A stretch of 24,533 nucleotides of DNA from a virus. A program made the position numbers and the translations under genes. The number at the start of each line of letters is the position of its first letter. Position 1 is the stretch's first letter. Below are positions 205 to 24,396 of the stretch, one piece after another. A model generated the notes under the pieces. It saw only the letters and a program-made list of their open reading frames with translations. It did not search any database and was not told the origin of the DNA. Location: IMG/VR virus record IMGVR_UViG_3300027759_005135, positions 1 to 24,533 of that record. One strand, 5' to 3'.

Positions 205-1017
205 TTAATTTCCTTTTAAATTTATCCAAAACTTTCTTTCTGTGTTAAAAATTTTTACTGCTTCTTCACCTACATTTATGTCAATATTTATATTACTATT
301 TTTAATTAACAATTCTTCTTGATTATCAAACTTTTTGGTAATTTGTTTTATAAATTCTTCTTTTTTGTCTTGCGGCAATTCTTTGTTTGCAAATACATAA
401 AGTCTAGGAAACGAATCTTTTTCAAAGGTGTGAATTATTTTTCCGGTATTATTTTTAAGATACTGGTCACCAACATTTAATCCGCCTTGAGTTGTACAAT
501 GTCCGTCAAGATGGCCACCTAACATATCATTGCTAATCTGTTGAGCTAGTTTATATGGTACATAAGTAAAATCAATTTTATAATTTTGCATTAAATTTTT
601 CATTAAAAGACTACAAATTCCTTTTTCTCCTATACCGCCTACAAACCACTTACCTTTAATGTCTGCAATTTTATTATATGGAAAATTTGTATTAACAAAG
701 ATTGCTTGTTTACTCCGTGTTAATGTGGCTAATAATTCAGTTTCTTTTGTTGGATCTTGAGGCAAATAACCACTTTCTAAATTGGCTATATGCACAGCGC
801 TTGTGGTTGCTATTACAATTGAATTTTTATTTTGTAACACTTTTTGCCAAGCTATAGCTCCTTGTGCACCCGGTACTTTTTCTATTACCAAATTAGGAAA
901 TAATATATCTTTTATTGTGTTTATCTGTTGTTCACCGGCAGTATAAACAGTTTGAGAAACTGCCAAATTACAAACAAAAAATAAACTTCCTAAAAATGTT
1001 TTATAGATTAATTTCAT
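205..1017 (-). CDS. Bug/TctC-like periplasmic solute-receptor homologue
   Basis: This 270-aa protein has an N-terminal signal peptide (about residues 1-21, cleavage near AVS/QT). Its body resembles extracytoplasmic receptors of the tripartite tricarboxylate transporter type (Bug/TctC). Landmarks are VPGAQGAIA at ~48-56 (family: KPGAGG-x-IG), an FTYVPYK segment at ~150-156 (family: HVPYKG) and MLGGHLDG at ~165-172 (family: LLGGQVDL). Bug proteins are usually about 320 aa, so this is shortened. In bacteria they bind carboxylates and similar ligands in the periplasm and deliver them to a membrane permease; no permease is seen here. The start overlaps the ATP-grasp gene stop by 4 nt (ATGA), so translation is probably coupled. 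It could feed the infected cell, act as a decoy or exclusion factor, or have been recruited as a structural or binding protein; the sequence does not decide. Confidence 0.65.
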   Translation of the reverse strand: MKLIYKTFLGSLFFVCNLAVSQTVYTAGEQQINTIKDILFPNLVIEKVPGAQGAIAWQKVLQNKNSIVIATTSAVHIANLESGYLPQDPTKETELLATLTRSKQAIFVNTNFPYNKIADIKGKWFVGGIGEKGICSLLMKNLMQNYKIDFTYVPYKLAQQISNDMLGGHLDGHCTTQGGLNVGDQYLKNNTGKIIHTFEKDSFPRLYVFANKELPQDKKEEFIKQITKKFDNQEELLIKNSNINIDINVGEEAVKIFNTERKFWINLKGN

Positions 1018-2264
1018 AATTTTTTCAACTCGGTTAAAAACTCTTTAATATTATTTTGTATTTCATATGTATTTGAACCATATGCTCGCAGACCCACTAT
1101 ACTACTATGTAATCTAACGGGAACATTAATTTCTATGTTATATTTTTCAATCAAACTTTTAATATTAGAATTGATTCCTCCACTAGGCATGGGGCATACA
1201 AAATAACACATATAATTAGTATCGTCTATTATATTTGGTGCCACATCATGCATATAATTCAGTCTATTCACAATAAGGTTATTACTAGACCATGCCTTTG
1301 ATAACATTTTTTCTGCTCGAGAAGTGTAATCCATAATAATTAATTGATTGTTGTTTTGTATCACTTGAACGGAAAAAGGAGTATTTTTAATATTGTTTAT
1401 TTTAAACACATTATTAAGATAGGCAAAAATATTATTGGTGTCGTTGGAATCTGTTAACCTACCATAATCACCCATAAAAGATGGAGTATTTACAATATTA
1501 TATAATGTTTCTATAGTAACCATTCGGCGATTGTTGATAGGATCAGGTATAAAACTATCTTGAAAACTATCTGATTTTGGCTCTATGTAAATATCTCCAT
1601 TTCCATTAACCCATCCAGTGTAATATTTGATAAAATCAAAATCCATGGCTTGCTGTAGTATACATTGATGCATTCTTAGCGACTTATTGCTTTGTTGTAT
1701 TTCTAAAAAATTTTCAATATTGACATTGGCAATAAAATCAGCATAAGATGTAAATTTTTTATAGTATACATTAGAAGTTGGAGTTGGAATTGTTTTAATA
1801 TAGTTTTTAATATTATCACTAACACTTTCGTTTATTTCAATGCCTAAACCTATACTATGTAAAGCAGGATGTTTTGCTGCGGACCCCACTCTAGGCTTGC
1901 AAAACACTGCAGAATGTTCATTGAAAAAGTTTTGTATTTCCTCTATGGAAGTAGGTAGAATAGTGGGAATAGTAGGAAATTGATTATCAGCAAGAGCCTT
2001 ATGTAACAACCACTTGTCAGCTAAATTTTCATTTACTGGTTTAATTTTTGAACTTAAAAAAGATGGAGTGTGGCCGCCATATACTTCTACATATGTTTGA
2101 ATATCTTCTATGTTATCAAAAGATAAAGCATCTGGTTCCAATATAGTCAAATATGCCGTACATTCTGGATCATTATAGTTATTAGTTGTTTGTATACCAA
2201 AACTATTCAACGTACCAGCCAAACCGGTTCTTTGTGTTATACTATTAAGTAGAAATATTTTCAT
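1014..2264 (-). CDS. ATP-grasp-like enzyme
   Basis: A 416-aa protein with the general order of an ATP-grasp ligase: an N-terminal pre-ATP domain (~1-80); a LADKWLLHKAL helix followed by PTIPT (~81-101), as in the lid entry of carboxylate-amine ligases; FCKPRVGSAAK at ~121-131, where the ATP-phosphate lysine and flexible loop would lie; and a late acidic/Arg motif IIMDYTSRAE at ~309-318, matching the Mg-binding D-x-(N/D)-x-R of the fold. ATP-grasp enzymes join a carboxylate to an amine or thiol through an acyl phosphate, including on peptides. The substrate is unknown. It sits in a tail-fibre operon downstream of a radical SAM/SPASM gene and a glycine-rich protein, so a peptide or tail-protein substrate is conceivable. 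Family membership rests on motif order only; a distant glycan or amino-acid ligase is equally possible. Confidence 0.55.
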   Translation of the reverse strand: MKIFLLNSITQRTGLAGTLNSFGIQTTNNYNDPECTAYLTILEPDALSFDNIEDIQTYVEVYGGHTPSFLSSKIKPVNENLADKWLLHKALADNQFPTIPTILPTSIEEIQNFFNEHSAVFCKPRVGSAAKHPALHSIGLGIEINESVSDNIKNYIKTIPTPTSNVYYKKFTSYADFIANVNIENFLEIQQSNKSLRMHQCILQQAMDFDFIKYYTGWVNGNGDIYIEPKSDSFQDSFIPDPINNRRMVTIETLYNIVNTPSFMGDYGRLTDSNDTNNIFAYLNNVFKINNIKNTPFSVQVIQNNNQLIIMDYTSRAEKMLSKAWSSNNLIVNRLNYMHDVAPNIIDDTNYMCYFVCPMPSGGINSNIKSLIEKYNIEINVPVRLHSSIVGLRAYGSNTYEIQNNIKEFLTELKKL

Positions 2265-2265
2265 A

Positions 2266-2484
2266 CTAATATATCCATTGATTTTGTTGTGGCACAGGTG
2301 TTTCTGATTCTGTTGGTGTATTACTAGTATTCACAAAACCTCCAATCCACAAATCCAAATCAGATGTTGTCATTTCTTCAAATAAATTAATATCGTTTGG
2401 ATAAAGTAAAATGCGTGATGTGCCTTCAACGTCAATATGAATTGTTCGTTGTTCATCGTTATGTTCAATTATTGTATATGCCAT
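2266..2484 (-). CDS. Small protein, truncated paralogue of the neighbouring chaperone-like gene
   Basis: This 72-aa protein starts MAYTIIEH. It aligns with the N-terminal part of the next gene upstream (MSYKIVKF): both share the pattern of an Ile/Glu-rich strand pair followed by DLD-(L/I)-(W/Y)-I-x-GFV (here at ~42-51). It then ends in a short polar tail and lacks the C-terminal assembly-chaperone domain of its neighbour. It is separated by 8 nt from that neighbour and by 1 nt from the ATP-grasp gene. The most economical reading is tandem duplication followed by loss of the C-terminal domain, leaving a small module that may bind a fibre tip or compete with the full protein. No function is recognised from sequence alone. 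Confidence 0.6.
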   Translation of the reverse strand: MAYTIIEHNDEQRTIHIDVEGTSRILLYPNDINLFEEMTTSDLDLWIGGFVNTSNTPTESETPVPQQNQWIY

Positions 2485-2492
2485 GTGTATAA

Positions 2493-2954
2493 TTAATAAT
2501 TGTTCGGCCTAGTTGGCCATACCATGTTTGAGTCTAATGATTGTTTGGTAATATTTCGAAGTTCTTGCCTGTATTTTCTCCACATTTTTTTCTCCGTTGC
2601 AGTGAGAGGAGCATCAGACAATTGAGTCCAATCTGTTTCTTGCAATAAATATTTACGTTTTTGATATACTTGTTGTAAATTAAAATTACGTTTTTGATAT
2701 TCAGATTCATTTTCTGTAGAGTTATTAACTAATTTTTGAATTTCATTCATATTAGATATGCCAGCATTTAACAATTTATTTCGGTCCACTAACCAAGTGG
2801 GCACGAACCCTCTAATATAAATATCTAAATCATCACCCTCTGGATATTTTCCATTATCAATAGGTAAATCTATTGAAATTCGTTGATTATATCCTAAACA
2901 TTCAATTTCAATTTGACCCGTTTCTGGCCAAAACTTTACGATTTTATAACTCAT
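2493..2954 (-). CDS. Tail fibre assembly chaperone-like protein (APC domain)
   Basis: The C-terminal region has the look of the phage tail assembly chaperone (Phage_tail_APC-type) domain: LLQETDWTQLSDAPLT followed by a W-x-x-YRQELR-type motif and a terminal VWPTRP. These proteins accompany tail fibre genes and assist fibre folding or trimerisation. The frame is open to an ATG at 3023, but I place the start at 2954 (MSYKIV, 153 aa). That start avoids a 40-nt overlap with the glycine-rich gene and aligns exactly with the start of the 72-aa paralogue next door (MAYTII). A shared N-terminal module with DLDIYIRGFV precedes the APC domain. No strong Shine-Dalgarno is seen at either candidate start. 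Its place directly after the glycine-rich adhesin-like gene fits a chaperone for that fibre. Confidence 0.65.
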   Translation of the reverse strand: MSYKIVKFWPETGQIEIECLGYNQRISIDLPIDNGKYPEGDDLDIYIRGFVPTWLVDRNKLLNAGISNMNEIQKLVNNSTENESEYQKRNFNLQQVYQKRKYLLQETDWTQLSDAPLTATEKKMWRKYRQELRNITKQSLDSNMVWPTRPNNY

Positions 2955-2983
2955 TGAGTCATTATATGGCCCATTAATATTGT

Positions 2984-3373
2984 TCAAGTTATCGCTCCAC
3001 TTCTTGTACCAAAAGCTAACCAAGTAACAAAAGAATTCCCAGCAACTGCTGATCCACCTGCTCCTCCGCCACCATTACCAGTTTGCCCGTTCCAAGCGTC
3101 TCCAGCTTGTCCTGTGGTTCCAGAAGATCCTGCAGCTCCTCCAGCACCACCATAGTAAGTTTGCAAACCTTGTTGACCTGCTTGGCCACCATTACCAAAG
3201 GTTGCTAAAGTTCCGGACCCTCCTGAAGCGCCAGAGGGTCCACCAAAAGCACCAGAACCAGGCGATCCGCCAGTACCTTGGCCTCGGCCACCTCCACCTC
3301 CACCCCCGCCGGTGAATGAACATGCTCCACAGGCTATTAGTCTTTTTGATTGTATGTAAGGTTTAAATTTCAT
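2984..3373 (-). CDS. Glycine-rich adhesin/tail fibre tip-like protein
   Basis: From the ATG at 3371-3373 this is 129 aa. It opens with a short basic segment (MKFKPYIQSKR), then a two-cysteine motif ACGAC, then eight consecutive glycines (~22-29) and about 90 residues of Gly/Ala/Ser/Gln-rich sequence. It closes with GNSFVTW...GTRSGAIT, an ending I associate with glycine-rich C-termini of phage tail fibres. An upstream in-frame ATG at 3388 would overlap the radical SAM gene, but GGAG lies about 8 nt before the 3373 ATG, which decides the start; the gap to the radical SAM stop is then 4 nt. Two roles fit: the detached C-terminal half of the fibre gene at 4852-6390 (a receptor-binding tip, comparable in style to glycine-rich gp38-type adhesins), or a leader-bearing substrate of the adjacent radical SAM enzyme. 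The two are not exclusive. Confidence 0.7.
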   Translation of the reverse strand: MKFKPYIQSKRLIACGACSFTGGGGGGGGRGQGTGGSPGSGAFGGPSGASGGSGTLATFGNGGQAGQQGLQTYYGGAGGAAGSSGTTGQAGDAWNGQTGNGGGGAGGSAVAGNSFVTWLAFGTRSGAIT

Positions 3374-3377
3374 TTTT

Positions 3378-4838
3378 TTATACTCCATTAATTATGGACT
3401 GTTTAAATGTTTCATGATAAGGCAAATCGATACCCGTTTCTACCATTTCTACTGTATCATTAAACAATAATCTAAAAGCTGCTTTCTGTATTTCTCCATA
3501 CCAAATTTTTTCTACCCGGCAATTAGTCATAAAAACTTCATCTGGTAATTTAATTGGACAACTGCTTCTACAAATTTTAATATTATGACAAGAAGCGCAA
3601 TGCGACTCTTTTCGTTTCATATCTAGACTGATGATACGAATTCCTTTAATATTATTAAGGTGACCATATATATGAGATTCATCTGTATGTGGACAAGTTC
3701 TAATATTACCATCCAAATCCATTGACAATATGTCGGCCATGTCAGCACCACAATTTGTATTTTCTAATATAGGCTCTCCAGTAATAGTTTTGCGAGCATA
3801 TTGAGTTACACTATAACCCAGAGGACTTCCATATATGTCTGTATTTAACAAAGGAAGTTCATCAGCTGTGGCCTGGAACACAAGAGGTTCACCATTTTCA
3901 TCCAAACCCCTTTCGGTAAATTGTTTATAATGAGCTTCTAAGAAATTTTTTAAAATTATTCTAAATTTTTCTAAATTTTCTCCATGAATTACGTGACTAT
4001 AACTTTTACCTTTTGAAGCATCTGTTGGTTTAACGCCTTCAATTGGAGTACATGGTAAAGAATCAGTTATGTCATTTGCATTTTCAACATAGGTTCTTCC
4101 CAGGGAAAATGCAAGTTGAAAAGTCAATAAACCATGTTCCATAATTTTATTTCTAAAATAGTTGTTGATTTCAAATAAATCATAATTTCTATTTGATACG
4201 GTACAAGTAAATCCATATTCAACATTGCTTAATTTATCAAACATTTTTAATGTTTCTATTACCCGAGCTCGATGAAAAATATCTTCTCCACGTAATTCTT
4301 CTTGATGCATTGCATCATGAGATATATTAAGAAGAACGTCAGACTTTAAAGTACTAAAAAAATCTGCATGTTTTGGATGTAAAGCGCTTCCATTTGTAGA
4401 AATATAAAAATGACGACCTTCTTCGTCTAAAAAAGTCATTAATTCCATTACATCATTCCAATATAAAAATGGCTCACCGCCCCAAAGTTCAATACGAGAT
4501 AAATTATCCAAATCTAAGTTTTTATTAACAGCATCAAAAAACACTTCTAATTTCTCACGTTTAGGACGTTCATTTGGATTACCAATATCTTTTTGCATAC
4601 AGTATGTACAACTATAATTGCACGCATGGCCCATTAAAATACGTAATGCAACCGGTTTATTATGTTTTTTACGAGTGGCATAATTTTCTTTTGCTAGTTT
4701 GTAATACTCATTATCATTTCGTAGTGATGGATCACCAATAACAATTCTTGTGCCGTCCACTTCATGCAAAGAGTTAGTTTCATTACAATAATAAAACTCT
4801 AAGCCTTTTGATGTCACAAATTTTGTATAATTATTCAT
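3378..4838 (-). CDS. Radical SAM / SPASM-domain enzyme
   Basis: This 486-aa protein has the complete set of radical SAM motifs: CNYSCTYC (C73, C77, C80) for the 4Fe-4S cluster that cleaves S-adenosylmethionine, and GGEP at ~120-123 for SAM binding. It ends in a textbook SPASM domain with C363, C382 and the C-x2-C-x5-C-x3-C core (C414, C417, C423, C427) plus C440, which would bind auxiliary Fe-S clusters. Members of this group modify peptides or proteins (thioether or C-C crosslinks, epimerisation, formylglycine formation). The gene lies between a tail fibre gene that ends in a glycine tract and a glycine-rich, Cys-containing protein, 13 nt and 4 nt away. A tail-fibre substrate is therefore the leading hypothesis, but this is inference from context. 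The start at 4838 (MNNYTKF) has only a weak upstream GATAAG. Confidence 0.9.
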   Translation of the reverse strand: MNNYTKFVTSKGLEFYYCNETNSLHEVDGTRIVIGDPSLRNDNEYYKLAKENYATRKKHNKPVALRILMGHACNYSCTYCMQKDIGNPNERPKREKLEVFFDAVNKNLDLDNLSRIELWGGEPFLYWNDVMELMTFLDEEGRHFYISTNGSALHPKHADFFSTLKSDVLLNISHDAMHQEELRGEDIFHRARVIETLKMFDKLSNVEYGFTCTVSNRNYDLFEINNYFRNKIMEHGLLTFQLAFSLGRTYVENANDITDSLPCTPIEGVKPTDASKGKSYSHVIHGENLEKFRIILKNFLEAHYKQFTERGLDENGEPLVFQATADELPLLNTDIYGSPLGYSVTQYARKTITGEPILENTNCGADMADILSMDLDGNIRTCPHTDESHIYGHLNNIKGIRIISLDMKRKESHCASCHNIKICRSSCPIKLPDEVFMTNCRVEKIWYGEIQKAAFRLLFNDTVEMVETGIDLPYHETFKQSIINGV

Positions 4839-4851
4839 TTTCTTATCAATT

Positions 4852-6390
4852 TTAATAAATTGTTAAACCGCTACCACCACCACCGCCGCCACCACCGCCT
4901 ATGGTGCCATTGTTAGTAACGCTGATTGCATAACGAGCAATAAAGGCTGGGCCAGCAGTAGTTCCGTTTCGATTAGCTCCTACTATGCTATCAGTTCCAC
5001 TATTATAAAAAGCACCTTGTCCCCCATCTCCCCCTCGACCCAAAATAATTCCATTGTTTATTAAAGCAAGAGTACTTCCTGCAAAAAAACTGGAACCTGT
5101 GTCAAAAGCATAAGAACCAGTTGATGTTGAATATACATAAACGCCAGCATTGATTGTGATGGTAGCTACCAATGGTACGGTTTGATCCCAACCAGCTGCA
5201 ATTGCAGCCGATTTAAGATTATAGTTAGTCGTGTCACTAGAAATTGTTTGATTGAATACAAACTCTGGTGCAACATTAGTTATTGTAGGTGTAAAATTGG
5301 TGGAACCAAAATAACTTGGATCAGTTCCATTAGCAAAAGTTGCACCGGTGCCGTCTTGCGGAAACTTATATGTATAATTTATTGTAGGAATTCCTATAGT
5401 GGCTATTTTAAGTCCATTACTAACATTTGTAATAGCTGCTGATTCTAAACCTGATAAAGCATTTTCTAATTGAGTTTTTATATCACTAATTACATTTGCT
5501 TGTGTTGCACCACTTTGATGTGCTTTGTAAATATTATATGTTATTCCGTTTAAAACAACTTGTACATAGGAAAATAATGGAACACCATATGTGTTTGAAG
5601 ATTGGTTATTCCAAGTGCCACGGTTAAGTGAATAATCAAATAGACTTCCATATCCACTACCTGTGTAATACCAACCCCAATACAAAATTTGTTTAGTTGC
5701 GCCACCATTATGATCATATGCGTAAAGCCATTGGTCTTGTCCTGTATTATTTGTTATAGTGCAGGTTATATCATTTCCGCTTATAGTGGCCGTTACATTA
5801 AATCCAGAAGGAGAATCACCAAATACCGTTCTACCGCCACCTGCACCTCCGGCAAGAGCATAGTATGCCATTCCTGATACTTGAGCATCGGTATTTTGTG
5901 GTAAATTACTTTGAATCGAACAATAAGTTCTGTTGTCACTATATGCATTAGGATTATAAGCACCCCAAAAATAATTAGCACCAAAACTTACTGTACCATC
6001 AACATTTCTAGTTATTGGATTACCATTAAAATACATAACGATTAATGTGGAATAAGCAATTGATGGAAATGCTTTCATGGTCCATGTTGTAGTAACTGTA
6101 CCACCATTTATTAAATAATGGCCATTTTGTATTACTCTGGACGATCCTAACGTATTAAAATTTCCACCAGATAAATTTGATGGCCATAGTATATACATAT
6201 TTGAGTCTGCACGAGGTTGACCATAACCATCAAACAAACTTATTTCTCCACTAGCACGTTGTAATAAAGTTCTTACAGAAGAATTAAACAAATCAAGTTG
6301 TGCTGTTTGACTAATGTTTAATTGTTTTGCTATTGATTGGCCTGTAATCGATCCAATTAAACTAATTGGGCCTCCAGAATTTAATGGCAT
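4852..6390 (-). CDS. Tail fibre protein ending in a glycine tract (probable N-terminal part of a split fibre)
   Basis: A 512-aa structural protein. Its N-terminus (MPLNSGGPISLIGSITGQSI, then a later SGEISLFDGYGQPR) is of the kind seen in tail and baseplate-attached proteins of T4-like environmental phages. The middle is Ser/Thr/Asn/Tyr-rich beta-structure-like sequence. The C-terminal ~130 residues follow the common fibre pattern: INAGVYVYS..TGSYAFDTGS, LINNGIILGRGGDGGQGA, then ISVTNNGTI followed by nine glycines (codons 4873-4899) and an abrupt SGLTIY stop. Comparable fibres usually continue through a long Gly-rich region to a TWxxxGTRxGxI-type end, and that ending is instead found in the separate gene at 2984-3373. 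The start overlaps the preceding gene's stop by 1 nt. Receptor binding or a scaffold for a separate tip protein is likely. Confidence 0.7.
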   Translation of the reverse strand: MPLNSGGPISLIGSITGQSIAKQLNISQTAQLDLFNSSVRTLLQRASGEISLFDGYGQPRADSNMYILWPSNLSGGNFNTLGSSRVIQNGHYLINGGTVTTTWTMKAFPSIAYSTLIVMYFNGNPITRNVDGTVSFGANYFWGAYNPNAYSDNRTYCSIQSNLPQNTDAQVSGMAYYALAGGAGGGRTVFGDSPSGFNVTATISGNDITCTITNNTGQDQWLYAYDHNGGATKQILYWGWYYTGSGYGSLFDYSLNRGTWNNQSSNTYGVPLFSYVQVVLNGITYNIYKAHQSGATQANVISDIKTQLENALSGLESAAITNVSNGLKIATIGIPTINYTYKFPQDGTGATFANGTDPSYFGSTNFTPTITNVAPEFVFNQTISSDTTNYNLKSAAIAAGWDQTVPLVATITINAGVYVYSTSTGSYAFDTGSSFFAGSTLALINNGIILGRGGDGGQGAFYNSGTDSIVGANRNGTTAGPAFIARYAISVTNNGTIGGGGGGGGGSGLTIY

Positions 6391-23733: not shown

Positions 23734-24396
23734 TCATTTATTAATATAAGTTCTATTGAGCATAGTGTGATTGTGGTCAGTTGGTCCCCAATCACCGTCC
23801 GGATGAAAAGCAATTACAACCATTGGTTCTTTCTCAGTAATAAATCGGTGATTTTCTTTTTCTTCAATACAAAATAATGTTTCAGGTTTCAGTTTAATCT
23901 TTTTTCCATCACTTAGGCAAGCATATCCTGACCCACTCACAACAAAACCTAATCTAATACTTGGGTGTATATGATAAGATTGTTGTATATTTGGTGGAAA
24001 ATATAATGCATTTAATGTTGGATCACCCAATCGTGGAGGATATACCAACAATGTGTCGGAACAACCATCAATATAACATAATCTGCCGGTAGATTCTAAT
24101 TTATCACCAATGATATTCTGACCTTTGAAACCAATACGAGTAATTAATACTATTTTACCGGTGTATGATATTTCATAAGAACCCCAAGACCAATATGAAA
24201 AATATTTGCCTTCGTTTACAACTTCACCATTAGGTAAAGTCGCTTTACCTGAAAATATGTAACCATATATTGTGGAGCATTCATTTGTAAAAGTTAATCC
24301 TTGGTCCAAATTTGCATCATGAAAAGCCGCAGAACAAGGATACATAGTATTTGTGTAATCTAGCCACACTTTATCTTTTTTTGAGTAAATTTTCAT
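23734..24396 (-). CDS. Cupin-domain protein
   Basis: 220 aa. The C-terminal half is a clear cupin: ALYFPPNIQQSYHIHPSIRLGFVVSGSGYACL (~130-161, metal-binding H142 and H144) and LKPETLFCIEEKENHRF (~169-185, H183). The N-terminal half (GYIFSGKATLPNGEVVNEGKYFSYWSWG) looks like a second, degenerate cupin, making a bicupin. Such proteins occur in T4-like aquatic phages without proven function; oxygenase, isomerase or sugar-binding roles are possible, and the retained histidines suggest a bound metal. Its ATG immediately follows the stop of the preceding gene (TAAATG). Confidence 0.75.
   Translation of the reverse strand: MKIYSKKDKVWLDYTNTMYPCSAAFHDANLDQGLTFTNECSTIYGYIFSGKATLPNGEVVNEGKYFSYWSWGSYEISYTGKIVLITRIGFKGQNIIGDKLESTGRLCYIDGCSDTLLVYPPRLGDPTLNALYFPPNIQQSYHIHPSIRLGFVVSGSGYACLSDGKKIKLKPETLFCIEEKENHRFITEKEPMVVIAFHPDGDWGPTDHNHTMLNRTYINK

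Follow-up and report, generated by a model that had tools for sequence, protein, structure and literature searches.

A GP38-type phage adhesin encoded in two parts, with a conserved cysteine tail and a linked radical SAM/SPASM enzyme

Why should the gene for a radical SAM (S-adenosylmethionine)/SPASM enzyme lie between two parts of a phage tail fibre? The question is raised by the IMG/VR virus record IMGVR_UViG_3300027759_005135, of which positions 1 to 24,533 were analysed (24,533 nucleotides, called the window below). Receptor-binding tips determine which bacteria a phage infects, and to our knowledge they are normally regarded as unmodified protein. The answer favoured here, to which we give a probability of roughly 0.7, is that the two parts make up a two-chain GP38-type adhesin broken in loop B, and that its cysteine tail is modified by the adjacent enzyme at the receptor-binding end. 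The loci used for comparison, cited by L numbers, are metagenome contigs, most of them fragments. The genes concerned are arranged in the window as follows.

4852..6390, minus strand: adhesin half 1 (512 residues), N-terminal part of a GP38-like poly-glycine adhesin; PF05268 (GP38) match of 29.5 bits, cutoff 25
4867..5265, minus strand: GP38-like part of half 1 (residues 376-508), aligned with half 1 of L001/L002/L003 and with unsplit phage fibres
3378..4838, minus strand: radical SAM/SPASM enzyme (486 residues), presumed modifier of the half-2 cysteine tail; PF04055 6e-14, phrog_1802 8e-38, full SPASM seven-cysteine motif
2984..3373, minus strand: adhesin half 2 (129 residues), the Gly-rich C-terminal part, kept as a separate gene; matches the C-terminal half of unsplit fibres
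3320..3346, minus strand: KRLIACGAC motif of the tail, half-2 residues 10-18, with all cysteines of that chain; presumed site of modification

Half 1 is separated from the enzyme gene by 13 nucleotides and the enzyme gene from half 2 by 4, and half 2 has a GGAG Shine-Dalgarno sequence at 3383-3386. A first-pass annotation, made from the sequence alone, had described a complete radical SAM/SPASM gene with these gaps between the fibre parts, which is confirmed by the open reading frame coordinates and the motifs. The C-terminus of half 1 reads ISVTNNGTI-GGGGGGGGG-SGLTIY, with nine glycines in the run, while half 2 begins with MKFKPYIQSKRLIACGACSFT, continues with eight glycines and ends in GNSFVTWLAFGTRSGAIT. 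Half 2 has no Pfam or NCBIfam match, and the cysteine peptides described below likewise belong to no named family there.

The joined halves match a fibre that other phages make as a single chain. In Sphaerotilus phage vB_SnaP-R1, gp43 runs ...TVTNNGTIGGGGGGGGGGG-PEAYGGSVDQ-GGGGGGGGRG...GNSNITWAATGTRLGSIT, and the same layout is found in the single-chain fibres of Macromonas phage BK-30P and Limnohabitans phage YIMV22061: a GP38-like domain, NNGTI with a Gly run, a further Gly run beyond a short variable loop, and an NSNITW..GTRLG C-terminus. The earlier impression that the joined parts resemble one Gly-rich fibre is thus borne out. In twelve further unsplit fibres, length and sequence are variable precisely where the window fibre is broken, and half 1 ends at the identical point in the 21 split loci, among them L001, L002, L003, L017, L025-L029, L137, L140 and L146. 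The split is not a chance event, since other viral contigs show it too, together with a tail motif of this kind. Homologues of half 1 that end without a Gly-rich partner were not found; wherever the contig of an examined split locus extends beyond half 1, a Gly-rich half 2 comes next or is separated from it by the enzyme gene. Locus L153 carries half 1, a desaturase gene and the enzyme before the contig ends, with half 2 outside it. In the best fibre-domain tree the split fibres do not form one group, which implies 4 changes for the split; support is weak, the tree is too weak to count origins, and a single origin is also possible.

The position of the break can be placed on the gp38 fold. A model of the unsplit homologue L148 (predicted local distance difference test score, pLDDT, 84) was compared with S16 gp38 (6F45), giving Z 24.2 and a root-mean-square deviation (rmsd) of 2.9 over 209 aligned residues, and with PP01 gp38 (9V85), giving Z 23.0; this match to the poly-glycine II sandwich was computed for L148 only. 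A sequence search with the fibre domain of half 1 found no match in the PDB; a profile of unsplit relatives did find gp38. In the sequence alignment with PP01 gp38 the break falls at YSQANNWAGKYV, a segment flanked by a Gly run on either side that includes the distal receptor-facing loop B (Q161-V170), and the chain is therefore cut in a receptor-facing loop. With the GP38 adhesins of T2-type phages (S16, PP01; PF05268) the window fibre shares a half 1 scoring above the family cutoff, Gly runs separated by hypervariable loops and, as predicted from the unsplit homologue, the poly-glycine II sandwich fold. Whereas gp38 as known is a single chain, the window encodes two polypeptides in two genes; these are broken in loop B, have a cysteine tail and are linked to a radical SAM gene.

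The break leaves half 2 with an N-terminal tail that holds cysteines. In 11 of 11 tabulated half 2 sequences, all cysteines (2-4 of them) are confined to an N-terminal tail of 20-40 residues. The tail motif of the core clade is [KRS]RL[IV][AG]CGAC, and basal members carry CVCAC (L140) or CACACAC and CACACDC (L146/L147). Since the codons of the motif differ synonymously between loci, it is conserved at the protein level, and a conserved DNA site was ruled out on the same ground. Compared with the leader/core precursor of a ribosomally synthesized and post-translationally modified peptide (RiPP), the N-terminal cysteine tail of half 2 runs into the fibre domain. The first-pass annotation made no mention of this tail, which is a pointer to the likely substrate site; judged from sequence, the half-2 cysteine tail is most likely what the enzyme acts on.

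Enzyme and split fibre are linked in both directions. In a scan that used the fibre domain ahead of the break as query, with the break itself excluded, the radical SAM gene was present at 12 of 13 split loci and at 0 of 31 complete unsplit loci (Fisher p 6e-10), or with counting by 80% clusters 8 versus 24 (p 1e-7). The thirteenth split locus, L145, is a fragment of 4.6 kb; its near-identical counterpart L147 does carry the enzyme. Over all loci collected the count is 20 of 21 split versus 0 of 46 unsplit (p 4e-16), where several of the 21 contigs overlap or are nearly identical. No copy was present in the entire records from which 15 unsplit fibres come, while the positive control found the enzyme in 5 of 5. 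In the other direction, for enzymes at least 55% identical to that of the window, all contigs of sufficient length have a split fibre of this kind beside the enzyme gene, and DNA scans with RLIACGAC and RLIGCGAC alone hit ahead of Gly-rich sequence in enzyme-bearing contigs only. A scan of 84,980 genomes with KRLI[AG]CGAC for bacterial or prophage copies returned 7 chance matches, none of them before Gly-rich sequence. The functional coupling of enzyme and fibre proposed earlier is strongly supported by these counts.

What is conserved is the trio of half 1, half 2 and enzyme, and not their order, for at least five gene orders occur among the split loci with the break at the same point in all. 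The order half 1, enzyme, half 2 is found in the window and L001, and the L003 contig ends inside the enzyme. The enzyme precedes both halves in L002, L137 and L140. In L025, L026 and L028 the halves are followed by chaperone, cupin, enzyme and ATP-grasp genes, and L017 has a TctC gene after the enzyme. The halves are followed by ATP-grasp, chaperone and enzyme in L146 and L147, and by desaturase and enzyme in L023, a 367 kb contig. The fibre therefore stays split with the enzyme upstream (L002, L137, L140) or downstream (L017, L025-L029, L023, L146), which contradicts the earlier statement that the enzyme had been inserted inside the fibre gene; that statement fits the gene order of the window but does not hold up against the relatives.

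The enzyme itself has the features of a peptide-modifying radical SAM protein. The cluster motif CX3CX2C is present as C73-NYS-C77-TY-C80 and is invariant in 59 aligned relatives. The SPASM seven-cysteine motif, defined as CX9-15GX4CXnCX2CX5CX3CXnC (PMC5715301), is complete: C363-x13-G377-x4-C382...C414-x2-C417-x5-C423-x3-C427...C440. The AlphaFold2 model (pLDDT 87) has the radical SAM barrel and SPASM fold, and its best PDB match is CteB (5why; Z 21.6, rmsd 4.4, 347 aligned residues), a structure entry titled for thioether bond formation in sactipeptides. The next folds are anSMEcpe (Z 20.6) and, lower, ChlB, TigE and SuiB, all of them peptide modifiers. No curated NCBIfam maturase model scored above its cutoff, the best being the PapB ranthipeptide maturase at 49.7 bits versus a cutoff of 340. 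The enzyme thus shares with the thioether-forming SPASM peptide maturases (CteB, PapB, SkfB and others) the CX3CX2C motif, the full SPASM motif, CteB as nearest fold and a cysteine-motif protein encoded next to it. It differs in having only about 16-17% sequence identity to the solved enzymes, and in that its presumed substrate is a phage structural adhesin chain, whereas theirs is a small secreted peptide.

Taken together, half 1 and half 2 would form, as separate chains, a single poly-glycine adhesin of the GP38 type located at the tail fibre tip. The break would leave half 2 with a free N-terminal tail bearing all of its cysteines (KRLIACGAC in the window), which the enzyme may recognise and modify, most likely by a thioether cross-link as in CteB. 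This step would precede or accompany the assembly of the two chains, and a further modification may come from the linked ATP-grasp protein. The modified tail would end up at the receptor-binding end, where a role in adsorption is plausible. If this is so, an enzyme-modified cysteine tail in the receptor-facing loop of a two-chain tip would add a new level to phage-host recognition, and it would be an unreported chemical modification of a viral attachment tip. Peptide-maturase chemistry would then reach virus particles, and phrog_1802, so far annotated by domain only, would gain substrates and perhaps a function. No earlier description came up in searches of the open-licence literature on radical SAM enzymes and tail fibres, RiPPs and phages, or Hint domains and phage tails.

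Distant relatives of the enzyme point in a similar direction. At 23-50% identity, 48 of 70 loci, or 33 of 49 clusters, have an adjacent phage protein with alternating cysteines, versus 4 of 40 controls, counted with a simple CxCxC pattern and with control loci chosen afterwards. The repeats lie mostly near chain ends, many of them C-terminal and few internal. The Achromobacter phages JWF and 2-1 encode phrog_1802 radical SAM proteins of the same family (24% identity to the window enzyme); in JWF the enzyme lies two genes after a fibre-like protein in which a cysteine repeat directly precedes a Hint domain, NCNCDCNCNCSC-FPAGT. The arrangement recurs in other phages, and there the repeat precedes a Hint domain whereas the cysteine motif of the window stands at a gene break. 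Fibre-like proteins with a cysteine repeat immediately before a Hint-type self-cleaving domain, beside a related radical SAM gene, were also noted in L059 (3321-4892), L067 (3802-5253; Pfam match), L070, L073, L079 and L096. The sister clade of the window enzyme is accompanied by separate peptides of 64-93 residues ending ...FYDDYTTVCECQCQCDCSRGTL. These belong to the cassettes of L030-L052 (e.g. L030 1932-7329, L031 1770-7170), which combine three radical SAM genes with a peptide ending CxCxCxC-RGT and look like a phage-borne peptide maturation system.

The cysteines thus appear to sit preferentially at a chain end or cleavage site, and in the window the broken gene would supply the chain end. 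A broader proposal is that a widespread phage radical SAM/SPASM family cross-links cysteine-repeat motifs at chain ends of virion tip proteins, with three ways of bringing the motif to a chain end: breakage of the adhesin gene, a small protein with CxCxC at its C-terminus, or placement of the repeat immediately ahead of a self-cleaving Hint domain. The odds on this family-wide proposal seem to us about even; if it holds, phages arm their receptor-binding tips via chemistry of the ribosomal-peptide type.

Several observations weigh against a modified two-chain adhesin. The enzymes of split fibres fall into a single clade (core ten 100/100; all twelve 83/57) beside the three-enzyme peptide cassettes, and because of this there may have been few independent events, fewer than the number of loci. 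The unsplit fibres L009-L012 have two cysteines (ICAYSSC) in the loop equivalent to the break and no radical SAM enzyme. In addition, 22 of the 70 distant enzyme loci have no CxCxC neighbour, partly owing to short contigs.

Other explanations have to be set against these data. It is conceivable, though unlikely, that the true substrate is a small peptide or some other protein, and that enzyme and split fibre keep together only as members of one mobile fibre cassette. The cassettes do include ATP-grasp, cupin, desaturase and transport genes, and the sister clade does pair with a separate peptide; but the linkage is kept through all the gene orders above and in different phages, including the 367 kb genome, unsplit relatives of the same fibre lack the enzyme, and half 2 has its only cysteines in a motif of the type found beside distant relatives of the enzyme.

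A similarly low probability is given to an anSME-like reaction, in which a tail cysteine would be converted to formylglycine, placing a reactive aldehyde at the adhesin tip. The sulfatase site for formylglycine is CxPxR, with a single cysteine. The fold of anSMEcpe is nearly tied with that of CteB, and the distant relative in phage JWF is annotated as sulfatase-maturing; however, half 2 has no CxPxR site, its conserved unit being two to four closely spaced cysteines, and the CxCxC repeats of the relatives fit cross-linking better.

Very improbable is the possibility that the tail cysteines only form disulfides or bind metal, locking the two chains together, with the enzyme irrelevant. The cysteine pairs of L009-L012, in the same loop without an enzyme, speak for it, but the strict co-occurrence of tail and enzyme would be left unexplained. 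Finally, that a radical SAM gene landed by chance in an intact fibre gene whose halves stayed functional agrees with the gene order of the window and L001, and of L003 up to its contig end, but can be dismissed given the close relative L002 (enzyme 81% identical), with adjacent halves and the enzyme upstream, and the further orders in L017, L025-L029, L137, L140 and L146.

The modified two-chain adhesin remains the preferred reading, and its locus continues downstream of half 2 with further genes.

2493..3023, minus strand: gene next to half 2, for a tail fibre assembly chaperone (Phage_tail_APC; PF16778 5.5e-15); start uncertain, possibly the ATG at 2954
2266..2484, minus strand: small protein; profile match in 9 of 21 split-fibre loci and 0 of 46 unsplit
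1014..2264, minus strand: ATP-grasp-like protein, probable second cassette component; weak PF14398 match, with the L140 homologue above cutoff

Homologues of the ATP-grasp-like protein occur at 18 of 21 split versus 0 of 46 unsplit loci, and the chaperone at 18 of 21 versus 4 of 46. A gene for a TctC-like periplasmic binding protein lies at 205-1017 on the minus strand of the window. TctC-like, TonB-receptor-like and TctA/TctB-like genes, an unusual set for phages, were also seen near the fibre in related split-fibre phages (L017 4592-8839; L140; L146 9008-12459; L147), under names that rest on sequence appearance and profile match and were not all confirmed by family search. A cupin-domain protein (PF07883) is encoded at 23734-24396 on the minus strand of the window, and cupin-like genes lie between chaperone and enzyme in L017 and L025-L029. 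Fatty acid desaturase-like genes stand beside split fibres in L023 (5138-5998), L137 (10377-11234) and L153 (8377-9234), with a Pfam match in L023 only. Within half 1, residues about 59-375 (window 5266-6216) form an extra stretch of ~318 residues without family match; L001 and L003, very similar in other respects, have a half 1 of 197 residues that lacks it.

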